From Lactobacillales bacterium (GTDB lineage: Bacteria > Bacillota > Bacilli > Lactobacillales > Streptococcaceae): a DNA stretch of 61,537 nt. Both the position numbers and the translations under genes were made by a program. Below are positions 8,751 to 24,194 of this stretch, piece after piece (within the stretch, counting starts at the first letter, position 1; every line of letters begins with the position of its first letter). Below the pieces are notes generated by a model. It made no database searches, was not told where the DNA came from, and worked only from the letters and a program-made list of their open reading frames with translations. The stretch spans positions 1-61,537 of the forward strand of contig JAISJW010000003.1 in NCBI GenBank assembly GCA_031261175.1, written 5' to 3'.

Positions 8751-8772
8751 CTCGAATTCAAGGAGAAATGTT

Positions 8773-9576
8773 ATGAACAATATCCACATTCAATTTTTAA
8801 AAGATCTACAATCTAAACTTCCAAAAGATTCTTGCTATTCTGGAAAGATAGCAGAGCACCTATACGGAATTAGCACCATAAATTTTCTAGAGAGCGCACA
8901 CATAGCGAACCTGTATGACTTTTTTATCAATCGCAAACGAATTAAAAATCCTTTAACGAAAAAGATTGAAATTTCAAGAATGGGCTATAAGAAAAATGAA
9001 TATTTCAGAGGAATTAAATGTCATGTTCACAAGCGTTTGACGCATAATGTTATCTCAGATATCAGAGTGGTGACTCCTGAATTTTTGTATGCCGAAACAA
9101 TTCGCAGCCTTGACTTGCCGGATAAAATTCGCTACGGGGTGCGGTTGACGGGTTATACGACGCTGCGGTTCAACGAGCAGCTTGGCCTCAAGCCGATTCT
9201 CGATGCCAACTCCCGGATTCCGTACAAAACGAACAAGGTGGCCCAGCGAGTTTTGGGCAAGTTCGCTTCGCCCCCTGAGTTGCAATTGTTCATCATGCTG
9301 ATTGAACGCGGCCTGCCGCTTCCTTTGGTGAACGAAAAAATTGCGCTTCCACCGAAGTTTCCACGCAATTCAATAATTCCAGATTTTTATTGGCCCGCTC
9401 ATAATTTGGTGGTCGAATATCAGGGTAAAGATTACCACTCTGACCAAGATTCGCTCAACGATGATACGACCAAAATCAACATTTATGCAGAGCTAGGCCT
9501 TACTGTCATTCAGTTAACAAAGGACAATGTTCACCGGCTTCCGCAAATCCTTCAAGCAAATTTTTTCGCTAATTAG
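8773..9576 (+). CDS. PD-(D/E)XK nuclease-fold protein (DUF559/Vsr-like)
   Basis: A 267-residue protein. The ATG at 8773 is preferred over the upstream ATG at 8722, which lies in a repeat, because AAGGAGAA stands about 6 nt before it. The C-terminal third has a restriction-endonuclease-like core: IIPDFYWPAHNLVVEYQG supplies the Asp and the E-x-Q pair, followed by H and a LGLTVIQLT strand. The N-terminal part (about 1-140) is unrecognised and AT-richer than the rest, suggesting a mosaic. It could be an abortive-infection or DNA-repair nuclease, or a regulator acting on the repeats just upstream; both are inference. Confidence 0.7.
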   Translation: MNNIHIQFLKDLQSKLPKDSCYSGKIAEHLYGISTINFLESAHIANLYDFFINRKRIKNPLTKKIEISRMGYKKNEYFRGIKCHVHKRLTHNVISDIRVVTPEFLYAETIRSLDLPDKIRYGVRLTGYTTLRFNEQLGLKPILDANSRIPYKTNKVAQRVLGKFASPPELQLFIMLIERGLPLPLVNEKIALPPKFPRNSIIPDFYWPAHNLVVEYQGKDYHSDQDSLNDDTTKINIYAELGLTVIQLTKDNVHRLPQILQANFFAN

Positions 9577-9949
9577 CACCCGCTAATTCGGCCCGGCACC
9601 TTTCAATCCATAATTTCTGATAATCGTCATCGTTTAGGATGCGCTCGTTCAAATCCTTGATTGAAAGTTCGTCCGCCCACTCTCGGCAAGTCAAATACAA
9701 CCTCGCCAGCTCCGGCGACAACTCATCGCGATCCACCTCGACTTCAACTTCGAGCGCGCCTTGGTTCGCTAGCGCTAGAAGTCGCGCGTGTCCGTCGAGC
9801 ACGAGCCACTCCGAACCGAACTTACGAATGCAAATCGGATCATACGCATCGCCTTCGCCCAGCCAACTCTCGACCGCCTTAAGCTTCGCCACCGATATGT
9901 AAATCTGCGTCAATTTTAAATCCGCGATTTTCATCTTACCACTGCGCAT
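9569..9949 (-). CDS. ParB-like N-terminal domain protein, small
   Basis: About 126 residues, using the ATG at 9949, which has AGGA about 8 nt upstream; it overlaps the end of the nuclease lipoprotein gene by 14 nt. The segment YDPICIRKFGSEWLVLDGHARLLAL resembles the ParB/sulfiredoxin fold, with the DGHxRL signature; only the stretch VLDGHARLLAL is diagnostic. There is no helix-turn-helix domain, so it is not a partition protein. Its stop overlaps that of the convergent nuclease-fold gene. Function unknown. Confidence 0.65.
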   Translation of the reverse strand: MRSGKMKIADLKLTQIYISVAKLKAVESWLGEGDAYDPICIRKFGSEWLVLDGHARLLALANQGALEVEVEVDRDELSPELARLYLTCREWADELSIKDLNERILNDDDYQKLWIERCRAELAGAN

Positions 9950-11036
9950 TGGAATTTCCTCTGATGGGTTGACGATTGCCGGCCGCGCGCGCCGCATCCT
10001 CGGTCATATATTGGTAATTCCCCGGGTTCGTCACGCGGTGATACATAATCCCGCTCTTCGACACGTAAACATAACCCTCTTGGGCAATTGCCCAGCCACT
10101 CGGCCCGGTTTCGGTCGTCGGGTTAGCGGCCGCACTCTGACTTTGCGCCGCGTTGTCCGATTGAGCCGGAGTGGCCTCTGGTGCCGCTTCGCCAGATCCT
10201 TGCGTCGCCATTCCGGTCGCGTAATCGATATTTGCAGCCGGCGAAACGTTGTCGAGATAAACGACCGTCGCGCCACCTGCGCCTGCTTGTTCGTGTCCGC
10301 CGCCGAGTTTGATTTCAAGCGTTTGCCCGTTTTCGTCATAACCGACATAAGCTAGACGAACTTTACGTGGAAGAAGCTCCGAACCTTGATACATCGGCGT
10401 CACTTGGTAATCGAGTTTGTAATTCGGGTGAAGCGCTAGCCAGTTGTCGAGATGATTTTCGTAAAACAACATCGCATCGACGTTGCTGCCGTTCATCCCA
10501 GTTTCGCCACCCTCGTTGAAATATTTCGTTTCCGGCACGAGGTTTCGCGCCTCGTCCATCAGGCCAGAGAATTGCCAACCGACCAAGTGTCCACGGTCAA
10601 AAAGCCACGCCGTTTTCCCCGTCGAAGTCTTTAATTTGTAGTTGTGCCAGCCGACCGGATCGATGTGAAAACTACCGGTGCGCGTCCCGCTCGCCGGCTC
10701 ATCGCCATCGCTCAGCTGAATGTGCGCATCCACCGCTCGTCGCAAACCATCAAGCGGTTGCAAAACAAGCTGTTTCGCCGCATTATAAGCTAACGGCTGT
10801 TGCGGATAAGCCGTAAAGCCGTTTTCGTCCACCGCCGGTGCCGGTGCCGGTTCTGTCGGGGCAGCTTCGCTATCCGGAGTTGAAGTTTCCGGCAGTGAAG
10901 ATTCCGGACTTGCCTCTTTTACGGTTTTCGCTGCGCTGTCGAGCGTCTTGTCGAGAGCCTCGTTCGCTGCGTCCGTGCAGCCCGTCAAGACGGCTAAAAG
11001 CAAGGTTGCTGTGATTAATAATTTTAATTTTTTCAT
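9936..11036 (-). CDS. EndA-type DNA/RNA non-specific endonuclease lipoprotein
   Basis: A beta-beta-alpha-metal nuclease exposed on the cell surface. The start at 11036 gives a lipoprotein signal peptide (MKKLKLLITATLLLAVLTGC), unlike the upstream in-frame codon. After an Ala/Glu/Pro linker the nuclease core shows LFDRGHLVGWQFSG (catalytic DRGH) and a following Asn/Gly-rich NEGGETGMNGSN. The C-terminal module (SKSGIMYHRVTN...) resembles the Ada-like GxxYHxxxC domain but lacks cysteines. In streptococci EndA degrades one strand during transformation; ComC nearby supports such a role, but nutrient or eDNA degradation is equally possible. Confidence 0.85.
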   Translation of the reverse strand: MKKLKLLITATLLLAVLTGCTDAANEALDKTLDSAAKTVKEASPESSLPETSTPDSEAAPTEPAPAPAVDENGFTAYPQQPLAYNAAKQLVLQPLDGLRRAVDAHIQLSDGDEPASGTRTGSFHIDPVGWHNYKLKTSTGKTAWLFDRGHLVGWQFSGLMDEARNLVPETKYFNEGGETGMNGSNVDAMLFYENHLDNWLALHPNYKLDYQVTPMYQGSELLPRKVRLAYVGYDENGQTLEIKLGGGHEQAGAGGATVVYLDNVSPAANIDYATGMATQGSGEAAPEATPAQSDNAAQSQSAAANPTTETGPSGWAIAQEGYVYVSKSGIMYHRVTNPGNYQYMTEDAARAAGNRQPIRGNSNAQW

Positions 11037-11052
11037 GCCTTTATTATACCAA

Positions 11053-11084
11053 AAAAAGCCCCGACCGGATGGTCTGAGCTTTAT
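11053..11084 (-). terminator. Terminator of the ten-gene TerY-P operon
   Basis: Minus-strand hairpin just inside/after the stop of the last operon gene: AAAGCTCAGACC and GGTCGGGGCTTT arms, followed by a T-run. The first 15 bp on the plus strand (AAAAAGCCCCGACCG, 11053-11067) recur exactly in the fhs terminator at 24596-24610, at the other side of the operon. Confidence 0.85.
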
Positions 11085-11086
11085 TT

Positions 11087-13153
11087 TTAATTCTCCTTTG
11101 AGTCCCAAATATCATCACTTTCTTCCAGTGAAATTTCTTTTTGTCCTAGGATTCTTCTTACAACATTTTCATCATTAATATTCCCTATCATACGAGCGGA
11201 TCCTGGGGTTGGTCTGCCCGTCGTAATTCTGTGTTGTGCTTCTTCCCATATCATATTTATATGATTTAATTCCATTACTTTGCTGTTGGCATCGCCGTCA
11301 CCTTGGGCAGCTGCTAATTTATACCATTTAAGCGCTTCGGTAATATTATGCGGAGTTCCTTCGCCGTTTTCATAAAACATTCCGGCATTGTACTGTCCAT
11401 CAACCGAACCTAATTGGGCCGCCTTCAAAGTCCATTCTAAAGCTTTAGCAGGATCGCTATCGACACCCAATCCTTCTCGGTAAATTTTAGCGAGACCAAG
11501 CATTGCGAAGTCATCACCTTGAGCTGCAGCTCTCTCATTTAATTCTATTGCTTTTTGATAATTAACAGGTACACCTTCCCCAGATAAATAAGAGTTAGCA
11601 AGGTTTTGTTGGGCAATTATATCCCCGTTATCCGCAGCCCTAGTCCACCAATAAATGCCAAGTTCTATATTTTCATCGACACCTTCTCCAACATAATACC
11701 TATTCCCAAGATCGCATTGAGCAATACCAGAATTGTTTTTACCGGAATCAGCCAATTCAAAAAGTTCAAAATTATTCATATAATCTCTCAAAGTTGTCTT
11801 GCTACCATAGGGGTTAGTTGCTTTTTTATTTGCTAATCCTAATAATTGCTTAGCTATTTTATTTCTTGATTTAGCAGCTTCGCTCCACCAATACACAGCT
11901 TTTTCGTCAGAGCGCTCAACCCCATCACCTCTTGCATAAAGTGAACCTAAATTACATTGCGCCATATCCGACCCAAGTTCAGCAGATCTTTGATACATAT
12001 CTGCAGCTTTTGTTAAATTAATCTCAAAACCTTGCTCACCAGTTTCAAAACATCCGCCAAGGTTATTGAACGAATCCTCTTCGAAACCGCCTTTTTTTAG
12101 TAATTTTATACTTTGTTTTCCTTGCTTCAGGCCGCCCTTAGCTGCCGCTTCATACAATTTTAGCGCTTTTTCGCTATTTTTTTCTATCCCCAAACCTAAA
12201 GCGTACGCATTACCTAATGCTAATTGCGCATCGGGATCTCCTTGATCTGCAGCTTTTTTATACCAATATACCGCTTCATCGAAGCTTTGTTCTACACCTT
12301 CTCCACGGTAATAATACGTTGCCAAATTATTCTGGGCAATTGCATTACCTGACTCGGCTGCTTTCAAATACCAATCAATCGCAATCGACGTATCGGATTG
12401 AACCCCTACTCCCTCGGCATATAAATACCCTAGATTAGATTGCGCATTTGGATTGCCTTGTTCAGCTGCTTTTGATAGCCACTTCAATGCCTTGTCATAA
12501 TCCTGTGAAACTAATTGCCCCACCAAATAAGCGAAGCCAATGTCCGACTGACATTCAGCATCGCCATCTAATGCATGGGCTAAAGCGTAATAGAAATTAG
12601 CTTTTATCTCATCTTTTTTTGTTCCAAGACCTTCTTCGTAATGCTCTGCTAAATCATAAACTGCCCCCGCGAATACTTCGCGTTCAGCGATCTGCTTAAT
12701 CCAATAAAAAGATTTATCGTAATCGATATCGGTTCCCAAGCCTTTTCGATACATCGTAGCTAAATTCCACTGCCCGTTTGAATGACCTTCTTCAGCCGAC
12801 TCCTTTAACAATTGAAATGCTTTCTCTAGATCCTGCTCAACTACATCCGCCGCATCGCGATAGGCAATTGCAAGATTAGTTTTTCCCATTCTACTACCTA
12901 ATTCGGCAGCTTTCTGATTTAATTCGAAGCTCTTAACCCCATCTTTTTCTACACCTCTACCGGTTACATACATCCACGCTAATTTGGCAACCGCATCCGA
13001 GTTTCCTTCTTCAGCACTTTTTTGGTAGCACTCAAAAGCTGCTTCGTAGTCTTCGACATCATATAACTCATTACCGCGTTCAAGCATTATCTCACCATTA
13101 TCAGTGTCTAGCCACTCAAAGCTTTCTGACTCAGGTGTATTCTCAAAATACAT
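11087..13153 (-). CDS. Large Sel1-like repeat protein, last gene of TerY-P operon
   Basis: About 688 residues. The ATG at 13153 is chosen because AGGAG lies about 9 nt upstream; the ATG at 13162 is too close to it. Nearly the whole length is made of about fifteen 36-residue Sel1/TPR-like units with the pattern AQxNLGxxYxxGxGV followed by A-xxWxxKAAexG. Such solenoids act as scaffolds for protein partners, often in signalling or secretion. No signal peptide or membrane helix. As the last gene of a kinase/phosphatase/helicase operon it is a likely adaptor. Confidence 0.9.
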   Translation of the reverse strand: MYFENTPESESFEWLDTDNGEIMLERGNELYDVEDYEAAFECYQKSAEEGNSDAVAKLAWMYVTGRGVEKDGVKSFELNQKAAELGSRMGKTNLAIAYRDAADVVEQDLEKAFQLLKESAEEGHSNGQWNLATMYRKGLGTDIDYDKSFYWIKQIAEREVFAGAVYDLAEHYEEGLGTKKDEIKANFYYALAHALDGDAECQSDIGFAYLVGQLVSQDYDKALKWLSKAAEQGNPNAQSNLGYLYAEGVGVQSDTSIAIDWYLKAAESGNAIAQNNLATYYYRGEGVEQSFDEAVYWYKKAADQGDPDAQLALGNAYALGLGIEKNSEKALKLYEAAAKGGLKQGKQSIKLLKKGGFEEDSFNNLGGCFETGEQGFEINLTKAADMYQRSAELGSDMAQCNLGSLYARGDGVERSDEKAVYWWSEAAKSRNKIAKQLLGLANKKATNPYGSKTTLRDYMNNFELFELADSGKNNSGIAQCDLGNRYYVGEGVDENIELGIYWWTRAADNGDIIAQQNLANSYLSGEGVPVNYQKAIELNERAAAQGDDFAMLGLAKIYREGLGVDSDPAKALEWTLKAAQLGSVDGQYNAGMFYENGEGTPHNITEALKWYKLAAAQGDGDANSKVMELNHINMIWEEAQHRITTGRPTPGSARMIGNINDENVVRRILGQKEISLEESDDIWDSKEN

Positions 13154-13165
13154 ATTTGTCATCTC

Positions 13166-14065
13166 CTATTTAAGATTTGTTTTTGCAATTAATATAGTCC
13201 TAAAATCATCATCTTTAACATAAGTTGTGCAAGGAAATTTCCCTATTCCAAGTAATGCCATCCGATATCTAACTTCCGTTGTATACCTCGTTTGACCAAC
13301 AGATAACTTTGCGTTTAATCTATTCTCTTTATAAAAATAGTTATTGGTTACAGAAGTACATTTAGGCAAGCCAACATATCCCTCGCTTGGTTTATATAAA
13401 AGCAACGAATCTTCATCTGTCATTCCAAAGTATTGGTAATTTACTAAATTGCCACTTTCAATCGTTGAATGAGCATAGGTAGGATCAAAATGATACCACT
13501 CACCTTCTAGCTTTGCCATAACCCAAGCGTGCAACTCGCCCTCGGCATTGCCAGTTACATATAGAGATTCTATCCCTACTTTCTGCAGCAATAGTTGCAT
13601 TCCACGGGCAAATCCCGCACACACTGCTTTCGAATGAATAAAAACACCTTCGATTGTTTGATGAAAAAATTCATTAGTTTCTGGTTGTCTATCTTTTCCA
13701 TAATCTATACTTTTACAGACCAGCTCATAGGCATATTTTACTTTTTGATAATCAGATAATCCAAACACTTTTTCTTTGTATTTTTTTACTATCGCTTTCA
13801 TTTTAGGCAATTGCTTTTTTATCTCTTCGACTTTATTATAGTATCGAAATTGGATAGTTCCATTGTTAGAAAAATTCAGCAAACCTCCAAACCAATAAAT
13901 TTCCGGATGATCAGCGGATATACATTCCACTATTTTTCTACATTCATCATAGTTTAAATTTTTATTTATGCTGATTTTGTCTTCGAGCTTTCGAATCTTT
14001 ACATAAAATGCATCATAAATTTTTTGATGCTTCGTTTCGAGCGTGCTACGTGCATAATATTCCAT
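13166..14065 (-). CDS. Transglutaminase-like cysteine protease-fold protein
   Basis: A 299-residue cytosolic protein with a transglutaminase-like core at about 145-215. The triad is visible: Cys in KAVCAGFARGMQ, His in GELHAWVMAK and Asp in WYHFDPTYA. The N-terminal 130 residues are helical and charged. Such domains may act as peptidases, cross-linking enzymes or non-catalytic binders; the intact triad suggests activity. It starts 4 nt after the zinc-protein gene and ends 12 nt before the Sel1 gene. Substrate unknown; cleavage of an operon partner upon phage attack is a guess. Confidence 0.85.
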   Translation of the reverse strand: MEYYARSTLETKHQKIYDAFYVKIRKLEDKISINKNLNYDECRKIVECISADHPEIYWFGGLLNFSNNGTIQFRYYNKVEEIKKQLPKMKAIVKKYKEKVFGLSDYQKVKYAYELVCKSIDYGKDRQPETNEFFHQTIEGVFIHSKAVCAGFARGMQLLLQKVGIESLYVTGNAEGELHAWVMAKLEGEWYHFDPTYAHSTIESGNLVNYQYFGMTDEDSLLLYKPSEGYVGLPKCTSVTNNYFYKENRLNAKLSVGQTRYTTEVRYRMALLGIGKFPCTTYVKDDDFRTILIAKTNLK

Positions 14066-14069
14066 TTAA

Positions 14070-14426
14070 TTACATAGCTCCACCGGCTACATCAATTTCT
14101 CCACGTACTAATTCTGATGCATCCGTTCTAGTGCCACACCAAGCGCAAGTAATTGATTCATTATCGATATGACAATTCAGCTTTCCGCAAGAACAAAAAA
14201 ACACACCAGGTCGTTCGCAATGAGGACAGCCAGGATAATCATTAGTGAAATAACTCAATTTAAGCGATTTCGTTGTATCTTCATATCCTTCTAACTCCAA
14301 AGCGGCTTCTGGCAATTTAAATGCCCAAGTACCCACATATTCATTTTCATTTAGCGGATCTATTCTTACTCCAAATAAATCTTTGGTTTTGCTACAACGA
14401 GAAAACACTACTTTTGGCTCTAACAT
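14070..14426 (-). CDS. Stand-alone TerY-C-like metal-binding protein
   Basis: A 118-residue protein whose C-terminal half is a zinc ribbon: CPHCERPGVFFCSCGKLNC, then CAWC. This spacing matches the TerY-C metal-binding domain that is normally fused to the C-terminus of TerY VWA proteins. The VWA protein of this operon lacks such a tail, so the domain may be supplied in trans here. N-terminal half is unrecognised. GGAGG lies 7 nt before the ATG. Assignment to TerY-C is from memory of the motif, not a profile search. Confidence 0.7.
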   Translation of the reverse strand: MLEPKVVFSRCSKTKDLFGVRIDPLNENEYVGTWAFKLPEAALELEGYEDTTKSLKLSYFTNDYPGCPHCERPGVFFCSCGKLNCHIDNESITCAWCGTRTDASELVRGEIDVAGGAM

Positions 14427-14439
14427 AAGGAATCCTCCT

Positions 14440-16695
14440 TTAATCTAATAATTCAATATCCATGAAATAATCTTTGTAATATTCGTCAAGTATTTGGTGT
14501 TTCTTTCCTTGATAACCTATTATCAATTTTTCTCTAGCTCTACTAAATGATACATAAGTAAGGTTATTTTGATTCTCTTTGTCCGTTTCATATTCACTAT
14601 CGAAATTAAAAGCGGGCACTATTACCTCGTCAAATTCTAAACCTTTTATCTGATAACGGTTAGAAAGATAAATTTTACCTCTTTCTACACCTGAAAATTT
14701 ACCCTTCAAAATTTCAATAGGTGTAATTCCAAGAGTGATAAGGCATGTTTTTAGTTCACTCTTAGTTTTTCGATCATGTGCATTAACTACCATTAGAATA
14801 GAATCATTATTTTTAACACCGTCCAGGGCAAACCGGGCAAAATTTTGAACATTGGCTTCAATTATTTGGACCGTATCACTTGAACTTTCTTTTGAATTAA
14901 TTGTTTCATTCGGCGTATCATCGTTAATCAATCGACCCGCGAAATCTGCTATCGCTTTACTATTTCTCATATTATCAGGTAAAGTTTCAGTATTAGCTTT
15001 AGTCATCCTGACCCCTAATTGCTTCCAAGTGAAATCTTTTCGATAAATTTTTTGATTTTCATCCCCTACGATGACTACTTGAGTTGCATTTGCTCCAGAA
15101 TTTTCTTGCTTTAATTTAAGTAGGAATCTAATTGCTATTAAATCAAGATCTTGCGATTCATCAATACCTATAAATGCATATTTAGGTAAATCATTTTTCT
15201 CATATAGCCATCTATAAGCATCATTAATTGAATAACGATTATTTTCTCTTAACAACGCTCTGAACTGAGCAAATATATCAAAAATTATTGCTCTGTCATC
15301 TTTAGTCGGGATAATTTTTCCTCCGCGTCCTGTACGTTGGACCTCGAGATAGGTATCTTTATCCGCTTTTGTTACACCTTCTATTTCTACTCTAGATTCT
15401 ATAAAGGTAAATTCATCTTCTAGAAATTTAACTATTTCCTCGTTAAATTGATTCAAAAATCTATTATTACTCTTTTCATGGTTTGCTTTCAAGTTAGCTA
15501 TTGCCTGTTTAACGTAATCTAGACGGCCTAATTGCTTGGTTTTCCAAGTTCCAATAGAATAACAAATGCTCAACTTAGGATAATATTTCTTCATCAAGTC
15601 ATACATGTATTTATCAATGCTAACTACTTCGATTTTATTATTGTAGCATGCGTTATTCACTATGTTTTGAGAATATTGTCTCAACGTTGGATTGAAGCAT
15701 ACGATTATAGCCTTGTTTTCACTCGCGAACAAATCCGTCGATTCATCAACGTTTTTCATCGCCTTAGCAATAAGACATAATGTCTTGCCACTACCCGCAC
15801 ATCCACGGACTTGAACGAATTCTTGCTTATTTTCGATAGCGCGAAGTTGACTAGTTGTAGCATTCCCACCTCCGGTTAAAGCTTTATTTATCCAATCGTT
15901 TTCGGATAATATTTCCATGACTTTTTCGGAAACTACTTTAACTTCAGTTTCTAGTTCTGCTTTTTTCTCTTTAATTTTTTCTGTTTTTTGTTCGAAATAC
16001 TGTGTCGTAATTTTCTCTGTTTGCTCAACAGCTTCATCACTTTCGATATCAATTCCTTTATTTTTTAGAAATTCCGAAAATTCATCTCTAACTTTTTTCA
16101 TATCCGTTTCAATCGAAATAGCTTTTTCGTTGAAATCATCGGTTTGCTTTTTGGCATCTTTAATTAATCTTTCGGCAGCCTCTTTCTCTTGCGCATCTAT
16201 ATCAACTAAATTTAGTTTAGTTTGCAGCTCTTGAATTTCTTCATCTTCTTCTTGAATAAATACTGTTCCCTCAATATCAATAGTACTGATATAATCAGAA
16301 TCAATGTACTTTTCAATTAAATATCTAAAAAATCGATCTAAATTTCGAAGCGCTTCGAAAGCCTCGTCTAAATCAACAACATCAGAATGCAAAGCGTTAT
16401 TGCCAGCTTTTCTGATCTGATGCAATTTAGAAAGTATAGATTCACTAAACTCCTTGCGGACTTTAAACCAATCTATTAGATCAATTAATTTATCCGAGTT
16501 AGAAACAACCGCACCTTTACTTCTCATTATCTTCTTAAGCGATGTTTCGATGATTTTTCGAGAACGCGAAAGAGCGATATCCGGATCACTAATTATTAAT
16601 TTTCTAGTAGAATTTATTTCTTTAGAATGATCTTTACCTACTAAATTTTTTAAATCATTCGCATATAACTCAAAAAAATCAAAATATCTATACAT
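14440..16695 (-). CDS. UvrD/Rep-like SF1 helicase with DUF4145-like N-terminus
   Basis: A 751-residue predicted 3'-5' DNA helicase/translocase. Residues about 30-130 resemble DUF4145 (RKIIETSLKKIM..., LHQIRKAGNNALHSD), a domain attached to restriction and defence proteins. A coiled coil follows (about 150-265). The motor has Walker A GCAGSGKT (298-305), Walker B IDESQD (511-516), motif III GDENQKIY (544-551) and C-terminal QIKGLEFDEV and YVSFSRARE. It has GGAG 7 nt before the start and lies 18 nt after the preceding gene. A DNA-acting effector arm of the operon is likely. Confidence 0.9.
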   Translation of the reverse strand: MYRYFDFFELYANDLKNLVGKDHSKEINSTRKLIISDPDIALSRSRKIIETSLKKIMRSKGAVVSNSDKLIDLIDWFKVRKEFSESILSKLHQIRKAGNNALHSDVVDLDEAFEALRNLDRFFRYLIEKYIDSDYISTIDIEGTVFIQEEDEEIQELQTKLNLVDIDAQEKEAAERLIKDAKKQTDDFNEKAISIETDMKKVRDEFSEFLKNKGIDIESDEAVEQTEKITTQYFEQKTEKIKEKKAELETEVKVVSEKVMEILSENDWINKALTGGGNATTSQLRAIENKQEFVQVRGCAGSGKTLCLIAKAMKNVDESTDLFASENKAIIVCFNPTLRQYSQNIVNNACYNNKIEVVSIDKYMYDLMKKYYPKLSICYSIGTWKTKQLGRLDYVKQAIANLKANHEKSNNRFLNQFNEEIVKFLEDEFTFIESRVEIEGVTKADKDTYLEVQRTGRGGKIIPTKDDRAIIFDIFAQFRALLRENNRYSINDAYRWLYEKNDLPKYAFIGIDESQDLDLIAIRFLLKLKQENSGANATQVVIVGDENQKIYRKDFTWKQLGVRMTKANTETLPDNMRNSKAIADFAGRLINDDTPNETINSKESSSDTVQIIEANVQNFARFALDGVKNNDSILMVVNAHDRKTKSELKTCLITLGITPIEILKGKFSGVERGKIYLSNRYQIKGLEFDEVIVPAFNFDSEYETDKENQNNLTYVSFSRAREKLIIGYQGKKHQILDEYYKDYFMDIELLD

Positions 16696-16713
16696 GTTTT
16701 TTCTCCAATAAAG

Positions 16714-17517
16714 TTAACTGTCTCTTCTGTAAACATCTGGGGCAATAACTGCGCTATTCTTTATGCGAGCGCGCGCTTTTCCTGCTCGCTCCAATCCAGG
16801 ATTAAAGGCGCTATCCTGTTGGGCTTTGAAATACCAAGAAGCCGCTTCTGTCAGGTTTTTATTTATTCCAATCCCTTTTTCAAACATAAAGCCGACAGCA
16901 TATGAAGAACACTTATCTTTTCCGTCTTTTGCTGCCACTCTGTGATATTGGAAGTTAGCTTGTTGAATATTTTCTATACCATTATTAATATTTATATCCA
17001 GTTGAGTTAAACGTTTAAATACTTGAACAGAAAAATCAGCGAATTTATCATCATTAGTTTTTTCTAAATTTTCAATTTTAGCACTCAATTCATCCAATAA
17101 TTCTTGATTTTTAGCTTCTACCTGGTCTAACGCCTCTTGGTACTTGCCAAGTGCTCCTCCAATATGGGCAACAACTGTATCAACACTGCTTTTCATATTT
17201 GCAATTGCATGATCCACTTCTCCTTTGAATCCAGAAGTCGACTCTTTAGCTAATAAAATCTCTTTACACAAAGACGATGTTTCTTCCTTGATCTCTCCTA
17301 CCAAATTAATCGTATCGACTTTGAACCCTTCGATAGTATTATCAAAATGATCGTTTTGCTCATTGTTTTTTTTATCAACAATTTTTGAAACATCTTTTGG
17401 AATTGCCGCTAATTTTTCTTGTGTCTTTTTTAACTCATCAATCAATCCAGAAGATGATAAAATTCCTTTTCGAAAATTCTCTATATCTTTTTCTAAACTT
17501 TCAATGGTCTCATTCAT
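16714..17517 (-). CDS. Coiled-coil protein with C-terminal Sel1-like unit
   Basis: A 267-residue protein, mainly coiled coil (about 1-185, heptads rich in Glu, Lys, Asp and Ile), ending in one or two Sel1-like units (CSSYAVGFMFEKGIGIN, then AASWYFKAQQD). Its ATG directly abuts the TAA of the RecQ-like gene, so the two are translationally coupled. It may oligomerise and bridge the helicase to other Sel1-type parts such as the large repeat protein at the operon's end. No enzyme motif is visible. Confidence 0.75.
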   Translation of the reverse strand: MNETIESLEKDIENFRKGILSSSGLIDELKKTQEKLAAIPKDVSKIVDKKNNEQNDHFDNTIEGFKVDTINLVGEIKEETSSLCKEILLAKESTSGFKGEVDHAIANMKSSVDTVVAHIGGALGKYQEALDQVEAKNQELLDELSAKIENLEKTNDDKFADFSVQVFKRLTQLDININNGIENIQQANFQYHRVAAKDGKDKCSSYAVGFMFEKGIGINKNLTEAASWYFKAQQDSAFNPGLERAGKARARIKNSAVIAPDVYRRDS

Positions 17518-20487
17518 TTATATTTCCCCTTTTATTCTCTTCGCAACCAACGCGTAAAAAATTATATCTTTTTCGGCATATTTGTAAAACTTATCCATAA
17601 TGTTAATAACGTTTTCCTCGTTCAAGCTATTCAGAGTTATTAACCTTTGTTCTTCCGATAATTCTTTAAATATTTTAATCAAACAATTATCGAATCCCAA
17701 AAATTCATCATGATTTAACACCCCTGCAATACGATCGTATCGCTTATCATCAAACCTATAATCCTTTTTAAAAATAGCGATAAATAGATAAATATCCAGC
17801 TTAACATCATAAGTTTCAGCATTTGCTCGCTCTACATTATTGATACTAGTTGTATTTTGCTTGCCAACTACTTCTTCAATTATCTGTTCAACAGACATAC
17901 TCTTTATCTTCTTCGAAATGTCACCAATTTTTGTGAAAGGTAATTCAAAGAAGTCAGCAATTTCCTCTGATATTTTAAAACTTTCCTTGTTAGTAGAATT
18001 TTCTATGAATTCAAAGAAATCTAGGAACATCTCTTTATGAACGTAAACATAGCGATCGAAATACCATGAAGCGAACGTTGTTGTCAAACTTTCAATATCA
18101 GTTGATTGATTAATTTTCGACATTTCTTCTGAGTAATTTCCTATTTTTTTTAAATACTCAATCGTTTCACGTTTCATTCTTTTTAAAATCACATTTCGGT
18201 TATCCTTCAATCCCATACCGACGTCAAGAATATATTGCTCCGCTCCATAATAATAAAAGTTAATTAACAACCCCACAACCCATAGCAGGTACCAGAATTT
18301 CCTATCTTGCTCATTGCCTTTCTTTACACAGAATTTCTTTGGTGAAATTTGTTCAAATTGACGAACAAACGCATCAAAAGTGCTTTTTAAAAAAATTTTG
18401 CTATATAATCCATTCGTAATATCTTCAACAATTTTGGCATAATCTGAATTGTCGCTTGGTTCTTTCAAGGTAGCTTGTTCTCTTTTGAACAGCTCCTTAG
18501 GCGCTTTGTTCTTGTCTAAATAATAGACGAACGAATTTACCTTTTCACCGCCACGACCAGCCCTACCAATTTCTTGGACAAATTGATTTTTAGAGGTCGG
18601 CATTCCACAGTGAATCACATTGTGTACATTAGCAAAATTAATTCCAACCCCAATTCGGTTAGTTGTAATTAATATTTTCGAATTCTGCTTCACGAAATTT
18701 TCATACGCTTCAGCATTGTTATGCGAAATATAATCAGCTTCCCAATTAAATTCGTTGACTAACTTTTCGGTTATGCTATCATCTTTTGTAAACAAGATAC
18801 TTCTTTTTCCAAGAGCCGCCATTCGTTTAGCAGTTTCAACAGCCTTAGCTTGCATCTCACTTTCATAGATGCAAACTTCAAATTTATAGTTGATAGCTCT
18901 ATCGTATTTAAGTCTCGAAATAACTTGTTTCTCTTCATCTTTTATTCCTAGTTGAGCTATCAGATCTTTTACAACCGTATAATCGGCAGTAGCCGTGTAT
19001 CCAATAAAATTAGCCTTGTCTAAATACCTCTCTAAATAAGTTGTCAACATTAGGTATTCCGGTTTGAAATCATGTCCTAAATTTGACAAACAGTGTACTT
19101 CATCTAGCACGATGGTTCCTACAGAGTGTTCACTTTTTCCTTGAATATGATTGTTGCTTTCTTTGAAAAATTTTAAAACATCATAGGTTTGTAACGTTTT
19201 CGCCGTTACATATACTAGTGAGTTAAACAACTTTCCATTCTCAATAAAATCTTCTCTATCTTCTAATGCTATTTGGGTAACATTATCAAAGTTATGAATC
19301 TCAGATAGATTACGAATTTGATCTTTAAGTAAAATGTCAGTTGGTACGATAACCGTCGTGATTTTCGGTTGTAGTAAAGATGCCAGATAAAATATCAACG
19401 ATTTACCACTGCCTGTCGGCATTACACAAATAGCATCCTTATTGACATTCAAGACATCGAGCAAAGCCTCAAATTGTCCATCTTTAAACGTTAAATAAGG
19501 AGATATTTCTTGTAGTAATATTTCAAAATTTTCTCGGTTTTTCTCAGTTAATTTATAAATTATCTCTCGTGGTTCTACCCAAATGTGTCGAGCATGATAT
19601 CTTTTCTCTAGCGCTTCGAACTTGATATCATCACCGATTTTAATTGCCGATTTTCGCTTGTCTAATATAAGATCCTTAACTTCGTAGCCCGAAAAGCTCG
19701 AAAATAACTTTGCGTATCCATTTATTAACTCAATTGCATTTTCAACGATTTCCGATTCGAATTCAGTTTCTAAATTCATTCTATCGCTATCGATATTCTC
19801 GTTTTCTAGCAACTGTAAAATCAAAATGGCGATTTTAAATACTTCATAATAATCAAAAGATAAATTTTTATTTTTAAAAACAAAAGGTAAATCAAGCTTA
19901 GATATATCCTTATTTCGAACAAGGTAGTTGAACACAAGAGCATATATACTGCGTGACTTCATGCCTATTTTCGAAGAACCTAACCTTGTATATTTTTGTT
20001 CGATTCCTGTAATCTTAAATCCGTAATCTTTTGCGCCCCAACCACAAGGAATAATAATTCCTACCTCTTCAGCTGGAATTGTCGGATTAATAAATTGCTC
20101 AAAATCATCTAAATATTCCACTTCATCAAGCAATTCAAAATCATCCAAAGTGAAATCATCCACGTAAATATCAGAAGGCACATAGCTTTCTTTAATTTCA
20201 TCGATACTTTCGAATAACGCAAAACTAGACACCGCGATTTTTGCATCATCAGTGCCTAATCCTTGCTCGTTCTCCAGCTTGTGTTCGAAGCGCTTAACCG
20301 CTTTAGAATCTAATTTACCATTGCTACGGATATATTCAACAATATCCATTTTATACAACATTAATAGTTGATTGCGTTGTTTTACGTCCTTGGGAAATAA
20401 ATCTCTTAAAAAGCCGTCAAACTTCAATGCGTTATCAAACAATGATGGATATTTTTCGTAAACAGCTTTTATATCTAAACTTTTCAT
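17518..20487 (-). CDS. RecQ-like SF2 DNA helicase, large
   Basis: A 989-residue helicase. About 1-330 is an unrecognised N-terminal region. The RecQ-type motor follows: motif 0 TFKDGQFEALLDVL (about 333), Walker A MPTGSGKS (356-363), motif II LDEVHCLSNLGHDFKPEYL (about 461-479), where RecQ has DEAHC, motif III GYTATA and motif VI QEIGRAGRGG. The zinc-binding domain of classical RecQ is not evident, and about 300 C-terminal residues are unrecognised. It begins 1 nt after the PP2C stop. It probably unwinds branched or replicating DNA under control of the kinase/phosphatase pair. Confidence 0.9.
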   Translation of the reverse strand: MKSLDIKAVYEKYPSLFDNALKFDGFLRDLFPKDVKQRNQLLMLYKMDIVEYIRSNGKLDSKAVKRFEHKLENEQGLGTDDAKIAVSSFALFESIDEIKESYVPSDIYVDDFTLDDFELLDEVEYLDDFEQFINPTIPAEEVGIIIPCGWGAKDYGFKITGIEQKYTRLGSSKIGMKSRSIYALVFNYLVRNKDISKLDLPFVFKNKNLSFDYYEVFKIAILILQLLENENIDSDRMNLETEFESEIVENAIELINGYAKLFSSFSGYEVKDLILDKRKSAIKIGDDIKFEALEKRYHARHIWVEPREIIYKLTEKNRENFEILLQEISPYLTFKDGQFEALLDVLNVNKDAICVMPTGSGKSLIFYLASLLQPKITTVIVPTDILLKDQIRNLSEIHNFDNVTQIALEDREDFIENGKLFNSLVYVTAKTLQTYDVLKFFKESNNHIQGKSEHSVGTIVLDEVHCLSNLGHDFKPEYLMLTTYLERYLDKANFIGYTATADYTVVKDLIAQLGIKDEEKQVISRLKYDRAINYKFEVCIYESEMQAKAVETAKRMAALGKRSILFTKDDSITEKLVNEFNWEADYISHNNAEAYENFVKQNSKILITTNRIGVGINFANVHNVIHCGMPTSKNQFVQEIGRAGRGGEKVNSFVYYLDKNKAPKELFKREQATLKEPSDNSDYAKIVEDITNGLYSKIFLKSTFDAFVRQFEQISPKKFCVKKGNEQDRKFWYLLWVVGLLINFYYYGAEQYILDVGMGLKDNRNVILKRMKRETIEYLKKIGNYSEEMSKINQSTDIESLTTTFASWYFDRYVYVHKEMFLDFFEFIENSTNKESFKISEEIADFFELPFTKIGDISKKIKSMSVEQIIEEVVGKQNTTSINNVERANAETYDVKLDIYLFIAIFKKDYRFDDKRYDRIAGVLNHDEFLGFDNCLIKIFKELSEEQRLITLNSLNEENVINIMDKFYKYAEKDIIFYALVAKRIKGEI

Positions 20488-20488
20488 A

Positions 20489-21370
20489 TTAATTACTTCT
20501 TCTCATTAGCCCAGCTATACTAACATCATCCCGGCTTCCATTTTTAGAAAATTCAGGCAAGGATTTTTTTAACGTCTTTTTAAAGCCCCCATCGCCGTAT
20601 TCATTTTCCCATTTTTCATGAAGTTGCTTGTAAAACTTATAAATATTTTTATCTTGTCGATCAAATGCAAATGAATCTTCTATGCCATCACTGCCGATAA
20701 AAACTGCTAACGGAGCCTGTTGCGGTTCCTCCAATTCAATTGATGAATAGTATATAAAGTTATCGATAGCATCACTAGAACAAATTGAAAAAGTTTTGTT
20801 AAAAGTCATCGCCTCTTCATCGTGCCATGGAGCTGGTTTTGGTTTTCCCTCTTGCTTCCCATCTTCGTCTAATAGTCTAGGCATCGGCAATAAAAAATTA
20901 TTTTCCACATCTTTTTCTTCAAAGATTTGCATACATGTTCCATCACCTATTTGGAATCCGAAACTTTCCCAATTTCCTTGATATAGATATTCAACATAGA
21001 CGATCAAAGTAGTTCCATATTGTTTGACATCATCATTATAGCACGGTTCTTCTTCTATTTGATTATGCCACTCGTTAACAATGTAAGATGCCAACCTATA
21101 TAAATCATCATAAGTCGGATTTGTTTCGGCTTCACAAAAAGATGAAATAGCTTCTTTAGTAATTTTAACCGCTTTTTTAGACCCTATATCACTTTTGCTT
21201 GCACTACCATGCCCATCGGCAACAACTATTAAACGATAATTCGAATTTTTTTCGGCTGATGGTGGGTAATTACCTGATGCATCTTGGCAAGGAATCCCTT
21301 TTTCAATATGGCTAAATCCTTTTACGGATCTACTGAAAAGAAAAGTTTTGTTTGTCAAATGCACACTCAT
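20489..21370 (-). CDS. PP2C-family Ser/Thr phosphatase of the TerY-P triad
   Basis: A 293-residue metal-dependent phosphatase. The start at 21370, 1 nt past the VWA stop, is favoured because the protein then begins like other family members (SRSVKGFSHIEKGIPCQDA). Metal ligands are visible in VVADGHGSASKSD (the DGHG motif), in FIGSDGIEDSF and in GSRDDVSIAGLM. PP2C enzymes reverse Ser/Thr phosphorylation; here it should antagonise the kinase at 22122-23360. PP2C, VWA and kinase in adjacent order define the TerY-P triad. Confidence 0.92.
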   Translation of the reverse strand: MSVHLTNKTFLFSRSVKGFSHIEKGIPCQDASGNYPPSAEKNSNYRLIVVADGHGSASKSDIGSKKAVKITKEAISSFCEAETNPTYDDLYRLASYIVNEWHNQIEEEPCYNDDVKQYGTTLIVYVEYLYQGNWESFGFQIGDGTCMQIFEEKDVENNFLLPMPRLLDEDGKQEGKPKPAPWHDEEAMTFNKTFSICSSDAIDNFIYYSSIELEEPQQAPLAVFIGSDGIEDSFAFDRQDKNIYKFYKQLHEKWENEYGDGGFKKTLKKSLPEFSKNGSRDDVSIAGLMRRSN

Positions 21371-21371
21371 A

Positions 21372-22109
21372 TTACCACTCGCCCCAGTCATCTACATCAA
21401 CATCGATATTTCCGTCATCGTCGGTAACTTGAGCTGCTACATCTGCACCCCCACCTGAAGGATCGTCAGTACTAACTTCCTCAGTAACCGCAACTTGTGA
21501 TTTAGATGCGATTTGTGACGATGTAACTGTTACAAATTGAATTACTTTACGTAAATCTTCTGCATTTTTAATATCGATAATAGCTTCATTGGTACCAGTG
21601 AATTTTTCTAGGATTTGTCTATCAACACCATCTTCGTATGCTAAGGCTAACTTCATACCAGATCTAAACCAGTTGTTTTGTTTCAAATCTGACAAAGATT
21701 TTTCATAATCATCACTAGGCACACCATCGCTGATCAAAATAAATACAGGGGCCAAAGATGCACTTGCTGCTTTCATGAATGCATTAGTAGATAGCTTAGA
21801 ATTAAGATCTTTAAACGCAGCGCCTAAAGAAGTTAATCCATCAACATTTACATCTGTCCACTCAAAATCAGCAACGCTTTCTGGTCCATTCGGTGTTAAC
21901 CATGAAACAGTTGTTCCGAAAGTTAAAATTCCAAATGACACTTCTGCATCGGCATTGTCTTCGTCTAGTTTTTTCATTACTGGAACTAATTTTTCCATCG
22001 CTTCATTAACAGCAGCAATTGGTGCTCCCATCATTGAACCTGAAATGTCAATCAAGAAAAAGACTGATAAATTTCTTCTTGCAATACCTTCGTTACTTAA
22101 TAATCCCAT
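21372..22109 (-). CDS. TerY-like von Willebrand factor A protein
   Basis: A 245-residue VWA protein with an intact metal-ion-dependent adhesion site: DISGSM (about 20-25), the Thr in GLTSLGAA and the Asp in LISDGVP. Such domains bind partners through a divalent cation. It ends in an acidic Asp/Gly tail. TerY proteins often carry a C-terminal zinc domain; here that part is absent and a separate TerY-C-like gene lies downstream at 14070. It has AGGAG 8 nt before the ATG, and its stop is 1 nt from the PP2C start. Confidence 0.9.
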   Translation of the reverse strand: MGLLSNEGIARRNLSVFFLIDISGSMMGAPIAAVNEAMEKLVPVMKKLDEDNADAEVSFGILTFGTTVSWLTPNGPESVADFEWTDVNVDGLTSLGAAFKDLNSKLSTNAFMKAASASLAPVFILISDGVPSDDYEKSLSDLKQNNWFRSGMKLALAYEDGVDRQILEKFTGTNEAIIDIKNAEDLRKVIQFVTVTSSQIASKSQVAVTEEVSTDDPSGGGADVAAQVTDDDGNIDVDVDDWGEW

Positions 22110-22121
22110 TTTTCATTCTCC

Positions 22122-23360
22122 TTATTTGAATTCTAATTTTATGGATTTAATTTTTAAAACTACACCTGTTTGAATCGGTAGAACTTCTTTAGGCTTAATA
22201 ATTTTTTGCTTACCGCCTAATGTCGCCTGCCAAATTTCTTTAGATTTATTTCCTAGACCAAAGCGACCGTTCTTTTCTAAAACAACACCATATACTTCGT
22301 CGCCCTTTTCATTAATATCAATTGCCTTAACTGTTTTCCCTTTTATCAGTGGAATGATTGTTAATCCATTATCGATATCAATATAATGTTTAACCACTTT
22401 CAGATCACTTGGATCAAAGAATTTATCTCCGTTGTAAATAGAATTTAACATTTTGTTAAAATCTTTCTTCCACGAGTCGCTTGATATGCGATTCTTTTTA
22501 CCACTTAGCAACTCTTGGCTAAACGCTTCTATGAATCTATCTTGAATGTATTTAGGCAATTCCGGCCAAGCACTAATGACTCCGCGATGAATCCGCTTGT
22601 TTGGTCTATTGCTGTCATCTTTGGGGTCGAAAATAAATAACGCATCGCTACCGTAAAGCTTTTTACTTGCCGCCTCTGTCAGACAAGGTGCTTTTAGAAC
22701 TCGCTCACCTTCCAAAGGATGACTTTTAGTGAATAGCATAAATAATAAAACTGAAAGCGAGTAACGATCTGTCTGTTTATCCGGATATTTCTTTGTTCCC
22801 GTTACCATTTCAGGGGCCAAATATCTTGCTTTACCTAAAATACCCGATTGCTCTTGATTCGCTACTACGTTGTCGTTATCACAGAGCAAGATATCACCTG
22901 TAGTCATGTTCAAAACGATATTTCCATCATTTAAATCTTGATAGCTATAACCTTTTGAATGCAAAGCATCAAATGCCTCAGCTAAATTTATGGCCATTTT
23001 AGTCAATGCTTCATATGATTTAGGAGATACCCTTCCGTTAAGATATTTAGAGAATGATTCAAAATCGCTAGGAAAAATATCCATTATGTATCCAAATTGC
23101 CCATCTGAATCTCGATCTACAAACTCTAACGGCCACACGAATTTATCACTTGGCGCATCTTCTAAACACATTTTTTCGATTCGCTCATGTAACCCTTTAT
23201 CTTCGGATTGTTTTGCGTTATACCATTTTAATGCTTTCTCAGTACAATTTATTTTTACTTTGTACACAATACCTTGTCCACCTGAACCTAATTGTTCAAT
23301 CACCTCAAATCTTGTTCCGTCTTTTGTAGTTCCTGTTGCTTTTTTGCTAAAATTAGCCAT
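22122..23360 (-). CDS. Ser/Thr protein kinase of the TerY-P triad
   Basis: A 412-residue Hanks-type kinase. Motifs: glycine loop QLGSGGQGIVYKV (about 20-32), the ATP-anchoring Lys in ALKWYN, a variant catalytic loop YQDLNDGN in place of HRDLKPEN (the Asp and Asn are kept), CDND in place of DFG, and LAPEM for APE. After about 330 a small beta-rich tail (IPLIKGKTVKAID..., FGLGNKSKEIW) resembles an FHA-like or OB-like domain. No membrane helix. GGGAGG lies 5-6 nt before the ATG. It is the likely sensor/activator of the operon. Confidence 0.9.
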   Translation of the reverse strand: MANFSKKATGTTKDGTRFEVIEQLGSGGQGIVYKVKINCTEKALKWYNAKQSEDKGLHERIEKMCLEDAPSDKFVWPLEFVDRDSDGQFGYIMDIFPSDFESFSKYLNGRVSPKSYEALTKMAINLAEAFDALHSKGYSYQDLNDGNIVLNMTTGDILLCDNDNVVANQEQSGILGKARYLAPEMVTGTKKYPDKQTDRYSLSVLLFMLFTKSHPLEGERVLKAPCLTEAASKKLYGSDALFIFDPKDDSNRPNKRIHRGVISAWPELPKYIQDRFIEAFSQELLSGKKNRISSDSWKKDFNKMLNSIYNGDKFFDPSDLKVVKHYIDIDNGLTIIPLIKGKTVKAIDINEKGDEVYGVVLEKNGRFGLGNKSKEIWQATLGGKQKIIKPKEVLPIQTGVVLKIKSIKLEFK

Positions 23361-23370
23361 TTTTTCCTCC

Positions 23371-23877
23371 CTATTTTACTAAACTTAATGCATTTGCTAT
23401 TACGTTTCCGTCTGGCAAATATATTCTTTGCGTTTTGTTTTTAAACTGAATTTCGATTGCATTTTCATAATATTCTGCTGCGATTATTTCACTTAACTTT
23501 TTGCTGAATCCCTCTTTAGGTCCTGCAAATATAATGCGTTGATTGGTAATATATAGATGCCCTTTTATCGCTTCTTGTTCAGTTGTTTCTCGGACATCGG
23601 TTCTTCCTCTGTTATAACTTATTCTATTACCTCTAAATAAACCCGGCACACTATATGAACCACCGTTTCTGACATATTGTTTATGCTGCTTTTCGAAAAG
23701 CAGAACAGCTCGTTCGTAATAACAACATGACTCGTTTTTTGCTAAAAATACATTCTTTACATTTAGATTAGGAGCGCTACCTCGCAACAAAGCATTCTTA
23801 GCAATATCTGGCATGATGCTAGGCACCGGCCCAATATTTATTGTGTTTCTACCTAGTAATAAATCTAATAATCCCAT
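23371..23877 (-). CDS. GRAM/PH-like domain protein, first gene of TerY-P operon
   Basis: A 168-residue protein. The C-terminal half (about 105-165) has the GRAM/bacterial PH signature GHLYITNQRIIFAGP followed by strands KLSEIIAAEYY and AIEIQFKNKTQRI. The N-terminal half contains two adjacent Cys and an aromatic-rich stretch. Such domains bind lipids or proteins and could place the complex at the membrane. AGGAG lies 7 nt before the ATG, and the kinase gene follows after 10 nt. First in the operon, so a sensor or anchor is possible; function unproven. Confidence 0.75.
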   Translation of the reverse strand: MGLLDLLLGRNTINIGPVPSIMPDIAKNALLRGSAPNLNVKNVFLAKNESCCYYERAVLLFEKQHKQYVRNGGSYSVPGLFRGNRISYNRGRTDVRETTEQEAIKGHLYITNQRIIFAGPKEGFSKKLSEIIAAEYYENAIEIQFKNKTQRIYLPDGNVIANALSLVK

Positions 23878-23894: not shown

Positions 23895-23975
23895 TTTTGC
23901 TTTCCTTTTGGGAAGCAAAAAATAAGGGTACCCTTATTTTGAATTTTCAAACTTTTATATAAGTTAAATGATTTT
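23895..23975 (-). promoter_or_regulatory. Promoter and attenuator/operator region of the TerY-P operon
   Basis: On the minus strand a candidate promoter TTGCAT - 18 nt - TATAAA starts at the end of the HTH gene. Just past the -10 lies a perfect 22-bp palindrome centred on GGTACC (23919-23940) whose transcript arm is followed by six T residues, so it can be an operator or an intrinsic attenuator. A second hairpin (23895-23920; TTTTGCTTTCC/GGAAGCAAAA) overlaps it by 2 nt, so the two could be alternative structures. Confidence 0.6.
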
Positions 23976-24194
23976 TTATGCAACGTCTGAATGTCCGTCC
24001 AAATCGATGACATCCCCGATATTAACACCTAATTCATGCGCAATCTTCGCTAGCGTGTCGAGCGCGACTGGCTCGTTTTTCCCGAGCTTGGCGATGACGT
24101 TGCTGCTGACGCCGGCCGCGTCTTTTAGCTGCGTTTTGTTCATCTTGCGATCGATGAGCAGTTTCCATAATTTGTCGTAATTAATTGCCGTCAT
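23976..24194 (-). CDS. XRE/Cro-like helix-turn-helix protein
   Basis: A 72-residue single-domain transcription factor: KNTQLKDAAGVS-type HTH (seen as NKTQLKDAAGVSSNVIAKL, about 19-37), then ALDTLAKIAHELGVNIGDVID. The domain type is Cro/C1. It ends just upstream of the TerY-P promoter and palindrome and is a plausible regulator of that operon. Its base composition is GC-richer, like the host genes, so it may instead be a resident gene beside the insertion point. AGAGGTG lies 4 nt before the ATG. Confidence 0.85.
   Translation of the reverse strand: MTAINYDKLWKLLIDRKMNKTQLKDAAGVSSNVIAKLGKNEPVALDTLAKIAHELGVNIGDVIDLDGHSDVA

Follow-up and report, generated by a model that had tools for sequence, protein, structure and literature searches.

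Here we describe a ten-gene operon in a 61,537-nucleotide stretch of DNA from a Lactobacillales bacterium (contig JAISJW010000003.1, positions 1 to 61,537 of the forward strand; hereafter, the window), in which a TerY-P-like triad of kinase, VWA protein and PP2C phosphatase is encoded together with a RecQ-like and a UvrD-like helicase. The cluster probably belongs to a modular family that acts in defence or in stress responses. That the locus is an acquired island with a TerY-P-like phosphorylation switch at its base, with exchangeable effectors docked by an adaptor domain and a role against invaders or in stress, strikes us as about an even call. The evidence comes from the triad core, from a helical domain at the N-terminus of the RecQ-like helicase that recurs in other triad loci, and from the genes that accompany sister triads. 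The TerY-P triad was reportedly described by Anantharaman, Iyer and Aravind in 2012 and is said to have been tested in defence by Gao et al. in 2020.

A low-G+C island with a recurrent triad core

The operon was confirmed as ten open reading frames (ORFs), called by the longest-ORF rule and without a trained gene finder, that span 11087–23877 on the minus strand. In order of transcription they encode a GRAM-like protein, the kinase, the VWA protein, PP2C, the RecQ-like helicase, a coiled-coil protein, a DUF4145-UvrD fusion, a TerY_C protein, a transglutaminase-like protein and a Sel1-repeat protein, separated by 10, 12, −20, 1, 0, 18, 13, 4, and 3 nt. All genes listed in an earlier note on this DNA were thus present, while its range of gaps, 0–18 nt, has to be extended to −20 to 18 nt because the VWA gene runs 20 nt into the PP2C gene. 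Purine-rich runs resembling ribosome-binding sites (read by eye) precede seven of the ten starts, the exceptions being RecQ, PP2C and the transglutaminase-like gene. The operon has a G+C content of 0.352, compared with 0.482 in the left and 0.451 in the right flank, and the low values run evenly across the RecQ and UvrD genes. Since, among 147 relatives, only the genome to which the window belongs has the kinase, and the operon's G+C of 0.35 departs from the surrounding 0.45–0.48, the best reading is that the island was horizontally acquired. The same difference in composition, together with a core gene order that is found again in other genomes, argues that the grouping is more than chance.

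To place the triad, we used a three-row kinase alignment, which returned at least 592 pattern matches in genomes of 84,980 species, with at least 522 encoding a relative. Plasmids yielded two relatives at E 1e-15, from Prevotella E2-28 (41% identity) and Methylomonas (30%), and both loci (L036 and L037) carry kinase, VWA and PP2C in the order of the window. We compared 88 loci, made up of the best 80 of the at least 522 genome relatives (a choice biased to the closest kinases), five viral-contig loci, the two plasmid loci and the window itself, which is included in all counts out of 88. L105, for which no kinase ORF was kept, is absent from the operon maps, leaving 87 operons; many surveyed contigs are short, and 69 loci have at least 3 kb downstream. 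Among the matches listed, the hosts are mostly Bacteroidales, Selenomonadaceae, other Clostridia-type firmicutes and spirochaetes, many of them from gut or rumen. The five viral-contig records (IMG/VR; L120–L124) encode the kinase.

A VWA gene was found in 76 of the 88 loci and a PP2C gene in 75, and both were present in 61 of the 69 loci with sufficient downstream sequence. The triad proposed in the earlier note therefore stands, with its order kept in other loci: it is the constant part of these operons, and the remaining genes come and go. The Ser/Thr-type kinase (412 aa; 22122–23360, minus strand; Pfam 2e-18, and alignment) carries the loops YQDLNDGN and CDND, said earlier to be variants that keep the key acidic residues. 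On the acidic residues this proved correct, with YQDLNDGN in 78 and CDND in all 87 of 87 related kinases. The idea that the loops are peculiar to this protein was rejected, as they are the norm, and the signature, of this kinase branch. Most relatives have a zinc ribbon after the kinase domain: an alignment of 53 shows four cysteine columns conserved in at least 90% of the rows, and 57 of 85 kinases of the branch contain at least two strict CxxC motifs. The window kinase has no CxxC behind residue 290 and no zinc-ribbon cysteines, the zinc part being the separate TerY_C gene; its residues 326–411 form a C-terminal domain modelled as beta-rich, for which Pfam offered nothing convincing and the Foldseek rows listed were kinase domains.

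The TerY-like VWA protein (21372–22109, minus strand; Pfam 1e-8) keeps its MIDAS strings intact, and its C-terminal tail is acidic and closes with DDWGEW. A comparable tail, defined as a tryptophan among the five final residues plus three or more acidic ones among the final twelve, ends 64 of 76 VWA proteins (of 79 clustered, three outside the length limits having been left out) versus 10 of 955 control proteins, and may represent a docking peptide. The PP2C phosphatase (20489–21391, minus strand) matches PP2C_2 at 1e-28. Strings that we take to be the catalytic motifs of the kinase, the VWA MIDAS, PP2C, the transglutaminase-like protein and both helicases were all seen.

A candidate adaptor domain on the RecQ-like helicase

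In L037 (16462–20998), on the Methylomonas plasmid, five consecutive proteins share a near-identical block of about 100 residues attached to different fusion parts. One of these parts is Sel1, and two contain stretches that look Clp-like by eye. We seeded a profile with this five-copy block and iterated it over the 87 non-window loci, the window never being part of the training. The profile finds 79 proteins in 47 loci, of which 67 belong to the contiguous operon and the other 12 lie a little way beyond it. Against all window frames, the N-terminus of the RecQ-like protein came first or joint first in each round, with E-values of 0.51 for the seed and then 2.2e-8, 3.7e-8, 1.9e-6, 1.4e-5, 1.1e-3, and 1.4e-3; the best reversed or shuffled controls in the same rounds scored 1.6, 0.53, 0.62, 0.19, 0.029, 0.18, and 0.69. 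By BLASTP, the same N-terminus aligned to an adaptor protein that had no row in any profile (L136, from G617), at 24% identity over 85 columns, with an E-value of 4e-9 as a single comparison and 8.5e-4 when four loci were searched. AlphaFold models the segment as seven helices, with a pLDDT of 90–96 per block over residues 11–90. Together, these results suggest that the N-terminal ~95 residues of the RecQ-like protein (989 aa; 17518–20487, minus strand) hold a new, all-helical adaptor of about 85 residues (residues about 20–95; 20203–20430, minus strand).

No Pfam family matched more than one of 30 adaptor members (best E 0.022), and a fold search with the model returned no clear relative in the PDB. 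A search of titles and abstract openings, a scope that takes in neither the 2012 TerY-P paper nor Gao et al. 2020, found no description of the adaptor in TerY-P operons, and the domain may already be in print.

Elsewhere, the domain is fused to LRR (L094, L115), ankyrin (L095), WG repeats (L082), DUF6273 (L118) and Sel1 (L091, L096), and also sits on a DUF4011-AAA-MTES_1575 helicase-nuclease (L054) and on proteins annotated as FGE and FtsK (L036); these fusions come from several phyla. Its distribution follows the kinase. Within the surveyed loci, 66 of the 374 operon proteins outside the core carry it, versus 12 of 727 others; those 12 are without exception encoded on the same strand as the kinase (12 of 382, against 0 of 345 on the opposite strand). 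Across 299 genomes of the phylum, the kinase was found in two and the adaptor in the same two; both (the window's genome and G175) had contributed to the profile, and the result speaks to specificity only. In the family of G558 (121 genomes), the kinase is present in five genomes and the adaptor in three, all within the five (hypergeometric p 3.5e-5). Of these three, G558 is the genome of L099 and part of the profile, G553 is that of L089, which has no profile row, and G617 is independent; adaptor and kinase lie 1.8 kb apart in G617 and on different contigs in G553. Because the adaptor is shared with other triad loci, the RecQ-like helicase can be linked to the triad by more than its position, which backs the tie drawn in the earlier note.

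Known defence genes accompany sister triads

We then asked what surrounds the triads of the other operons, naming payload families from scanned representatives only. PglZ and BrxL stand immediately upstream of TerY_C and the triad in six of the 87 operons (L058, L070, L103, L119, L121, L122). In the viral-contig loci L121 and L122, the clusters that precede the kinase, PglX, PglZ and BrxL among them, come in the same order, and the one BrxL scanned carries an MIT_C/phospholipase-D-like end. ZorA/ZorB-type genes occur in two operons (L036, the plasmid locus from Prevotella, and L073), in line with the triad and joined by FtsK and FGE-type proteins. Further payloads are TerD (nine operons), radical-SAM (nine), P-type ATPase (six), Hsp70 (five, in clusters of three and two) and a UvrD-exonuclease (three), and Sel1 and PIF1 likewise vary beside the triad. 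On the scanned representatives, PADLOC recognized PglZ, BrxL, BrxC, PglX, DpdF/PsyrT-like, ZorA2, ZorB2, Hhe/PDC-S37 and RTasHel/GajB-like proteins, and a helicase-nuclease of the Hhe/PDC-S37 type beside a sister triad itself carries the adaptor. Established defence genes next to sister triads thus lend support to the proposed connection to defence.

Accessory genes recur separately

Pfam searches upheld most of the domain labels given to the remaining genes. The Sel1-repeat protein (691 aa; 11087–13162; also BLAST) matched at 1e-116, the transglutaminase-like protein (299 aa; 13166–14065), in which Cys-His-Asp strings are present, at 4e-13, and the stand-alone TerY_C zinc protein (118 aa; 14070–14426), which has homologues in other loci, at 1e-10. 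The DUF4145-UvrD protein (751 aa; 14440–16695) joins DUF4145, a member of the HEPN superfamily (1e-6, above the cut-off), to a UvrD-like SF1 helicase (9e-12, and motif strings). Two labels were weak: GRAM for the GRAM/PH-like protein (168 aa; 23371–23877), at 0.004 and below the cut-off, with a Vps36 GLUE-type match at 3e-5, and the degenerate Sel1 repeat of the coiled-coil protein (267 aa; 16714–17517), at 0.003. All these genes are on the minus strand. A window-free profile of the GRAM-like C-terminal part from triad loci matched the window protein at 1e-12.

The SF2 helicase (core about residues 320–690) matches DEAD at 8e-17 and Helicase_C at 2e-12, as well as two RecQ models at 8e-49 and 4e-48, below their curated cut-offs. 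RecQ-type core motifs, including LGHDFKPEY, are present, whereas the full RecQ equivalog with RQC/HRDC reached 166.6 bits against a cut-off of 640.2, its match stopping at residue 662; by these matches the protein is classed as a RecQ-like paralogue. In PADLOC, which holds defence models only, it scores best against DpdF and PsyrT, and the UvrD-like protein against GajB. Two RecQ-like proteins of 1500 residues occur in the BREX-linked triad operons L058 and L103, one gene removed after PP2C, and resemble the window protein in the helicase core only (hhalign 1.2e-20, 185 columns). Searches with single proteins did not lead to relatives of the system. Viral contigs gave no match to the RecQ-like protein, none of 93 plasmid and 10 phage records covers at least 80% of it, and the matches listed in the 147 relatives, its own excepted, span the helicase core only; 398 phylum genomes contain three matches at 1e-36, self included. 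At the one plasmid match followed up by tblastn (H1, L034), no other window gene was found. The UvrD-like protein matched only itself in the 398 phylum genomes at 1e-20, and among the matches listed none of 31 on plasmids reaches DUF4145. The R/H pair of DUF4145 reads R95-x7-H103 (a string match), in contrast to the R-x4-6-H typical of HEPN catalytic motifs, leaving an RNase activity of this protein uncertain.

Recurrence of the seven extra genes speaks against the fixed ten-part machine suggested in the earlier note. TerY_C-like genes are found in 31, GRAM-like in 16, Sel1 in eight, transglutaminase-like in seven and the RecQ-like helicase core in three of 88 loci (BLAST E 1e-4 for Sel1, a loose count given its generic repeat, and for RecQ), while DUF4145-UvrD and the coiled-coil protein are each confined to one, the window. 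In four of the seven transglutaminase loci (window, L093, L094, L097) that gene lies directly behind TerY_C. The note had held that the set would be a chance arrangement if the extra genes never accompanied other triads; in the loci surveyed, five of them do, and two do not. We accordingly rejected both pure chance, given the recurrence of TerY_C, transglutaminase-like, GRAM-like and Sel1 genes, and a single fixed set, given that they recur separately.

Relation to known systems

As described in PMC11090510 and PMC7699616, which also relate the work of 2012 and that of Gao et al. 2020, TerY-P has adjacent VWA, PP2C and kinase genes, a TerY_C zinc domain and ties to DNA-processing or restriction genes. 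All of this applies to the window. The TerY-P kinase has a zinc ribbon fused to its C-terminus, and TerY-P-like variants with a C-terminal OB fold are mentioned after Gao et al. in PMC11090510. The window kinase lacks the zinc-ribbon cysteines, with the zinc part in a separate gene, and we therefore file the locus as a TerY-P-like variant, and not as canonical TerY-P. Its branch differs further in the YQDLNDGN/CDND loops, the acidic-tryptophan VWA tail and the adaptor-tagged effectors; the adaptor is not described in the consulted parts of these two papers.

TerY-P also accompanies CoCoNuTs of type II and III-A, where, as in the window, it stands beside helicase and coiled-coil proteins in one operon (PMC11090510). 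Unlike CoCoNuTs, the ten window proteins showed no McrB-like GTPase and no CnuH or CnuE in general library scans, and their helicases are RecQ-like SF2 and UvrD-like SF1. Fusions of N-terminal DUF4145, assigned to the HEPN superfamily, with UvrD-like helicases such as that of the window are already listed in PMC3710099. BREX genes (PglZ, BrxL, BrxC, PglX) and Zorya II genes (ZorA/ZorB) stand in line with sister triads of the same kinase branch, yet none of them is among the window's ten proteins. In the main text of PMC12839542, neither 'TerY' nor 'PP2C' occurs.

A parallel in principle is offered by actinobacterial GAP1-N2 loci, which, as PMC7159879 describes, join a kinase-zinc ribbon-beta domain protein, PP2C and a stand-alone vWA, and where small helical adaptors (EAD, GAAD) link variable effectors to the core. 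The window branch shares the kinase, PP2C and vWA set and the adaptor principle; unlike in those neighbourhoods, no GTPase or GAP1 gene was identified in the window. As with EADs, our adaptor is a small non-enzymatic domain on variable effectors, but a second copy on a core component was not found. None of the 30 adaptor members matched an EAD in Pfam, which presumably includes EAD models, the relation being judged by Pfam only and not by profile-profile comparison. The adaptor may at most work like an EAD, and we do not class it as one.

Flanks of the operon

Upstream of the operon, a Cro/C1-type helix-turn-helix (HTH) gene (72 aa; 23976–24194, minus strand; Pfam HTH_26 3e-15) encodes a possible operon regulator. 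It has no sequence homologue in the other 87 loci (BLAST E 1e-4); a gene annotated as HTH also opens the related Prevotella operon L036. The space that separates the window's HTH gene from the operon contains a perfect 22-bp palindrome (23919–23940), a candidate operator or control element, which matches at a single site in the window at up to three mismatches and never in 100 shuffles. A second, imperfect inverted repeat (23895–23920) adjoins it.

Directly downstream, an ORF on the minus strand (9936–11108) encodes a DNA/RNA non-specific endonuclease. Its overlap with the end of the Sel1 gene depends on the use of a TTG start, and an inner ATG begins what reads by eye as a lipoprotein-like signal. 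Because the G+C content rises there, this gene probably lies outside the island. Farther out, a plus-strand ORF (8722–9576; 284 aa) has a C-terminal region weakly resembling DUF559 (E 0.008, below the cut-off), possibly a small nuclease.

A switch with exchangeable clients and its alternatives

How could such an operon work? A cue, for example foreign DNA or stress, might be sensed through the zinc, GRAM, Sel1 or coiled-coil parts. The VWA tail, itself a common trait of the branch, would then join kinase, phosphatase and clients, and the N-terminal helical adaptor would bring the RecQ-like helicase to the switch, as it may do for the sister payloads with which it shares the domain and whose kinase it accompanies. 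By controlling the client's phosphorylation state, kinase and PP2C would gate the RecQ-like motor; DUF4145-UvrD would form a second arm directed at nucleic acids, and the transglutaminase-like protein would act as a processing or activating protease. The earlier proposal that phosphorylation switches both helicases and that the protease-like protein is an effector or activator stays a conjecture. As defence genes adjoin sister triads, the outcome would most likely be attack on, or arrest of, invading DNA. Extended to the whole branch, the adaptor would tag any payload—helicases, nucleases, translocases or repeat proteins—and couple one phospho-switch to BREX, to Zorya-type and to stand-alone helicase effectors, the window being the RecQ-like/DUF4145-UvrD version; we put this broader proposition slightly below an even chance.

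Several observations weigh against an adaptor-docked defence switch. The five-copy seed alone gave no significant match (0.51, with another window frame at 0.41), and the match weakened as the profile was broadened, to 1.1e-3 and 1.4e-3 in rounds 5 and 6 (controls 0.18 and 0.69). In the window, the adaptor is present on the RecQ-like protein only, with no partner copy on a triad component; the sole core-cluster protein bearing it elsewhere (L118, 1823–2827) looks mis-clustered. Two genomes, G542 and G656, contain the kinase and no adaptor at E 1e-4. DUF4145-UvrD and the coiled-coil protein have no homologue in the other 87 loci (BLAST E 1e-4), and their roles may for that reason be incidental. 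Since its G+C of 0.49 resembles the flanks, the HTH gene may be a host-resident gene unrelated to the operon. Finally, sister payloads including TerD, P-type ATPase, LRR, radical-SAM and Hsp70/GrpE suit stress as well as defence.

This last point feeds the strongest alternative, namely a stress regulator for metal, envelope or DNA damage, whose triad would serve to tune helicases for repair and components of proteostasis. Such a role would fit the group of L089, L093, L094, L097, L098, L101 and L115, with TerD pairs, P-type ATPase, LRR and transglutaminase-like genes, the Hsp70/GrpE of L050, L074 and L118, the Hsp70 of L106 and L117, and the radical-SAM pairs; RecQ and UvrD folds are, moreover, also repair folds. 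Other sister triads, however, adjoin dedicated phage-defence genes of BREX, Zorya and Hhe type, the island is sporadic (the kinase is absent from the 146 other relatives), and both helicases score best against DpdF, PsyrT and GajB, albeit in a library of defence models. We regard a stress regulator as unlikely, though it deserves the most attention among the alternatives.

A chance composite of two or more defence genes on one transcript, in which a TerY-P-like system with TerY_C and transglutaminase-like genes adjoins an unrelated RecQ-like/UvrD-like pair, would explain why DUF4145-UvrD and the coiled-coil protein recur in none of the other loci and why neither helicase has a full-length relative in the 147 and 398 genomes. 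It leaves unexplained the triad-linked adaptor on the RecQ-like protein, the RecQ-like helicases that follow PP2C, one gene removed, in the BREX-linked L058 and L103 (similar in the core only), and the gaps of 0–18 nt and even low G+C over the RecQ and UvrD genes, and we consider it improbable. Least credible of all is that the adaptor is a generic helical domain duplicated within operons without recruiting effectors: the five near-identical serial copies in L037 do look like local duplication and the fold search yielded no informative relative, but proteins of unrelated kinds (LRR, ankyrin, Sel1, FGE, FtsK, WG, DUF4011 helicase-nuclease, RecQ-like) carry the domain as a fusion in several phyla, with its genomic link to the kinase kept.

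TerY-P triads are known beside restriction systems and are known to stop phages, and the point of interest is how their three signalling proteins recognize and regulate clients. On an adaptor-docked switch, the adaptor carried by exchangeable clients and the tail of the VWA protein would be two concrete candidate contact points, both open to cutting or swapping, and the adaptor profile offers a means of searching gut and rumen bacteria for new effectors.

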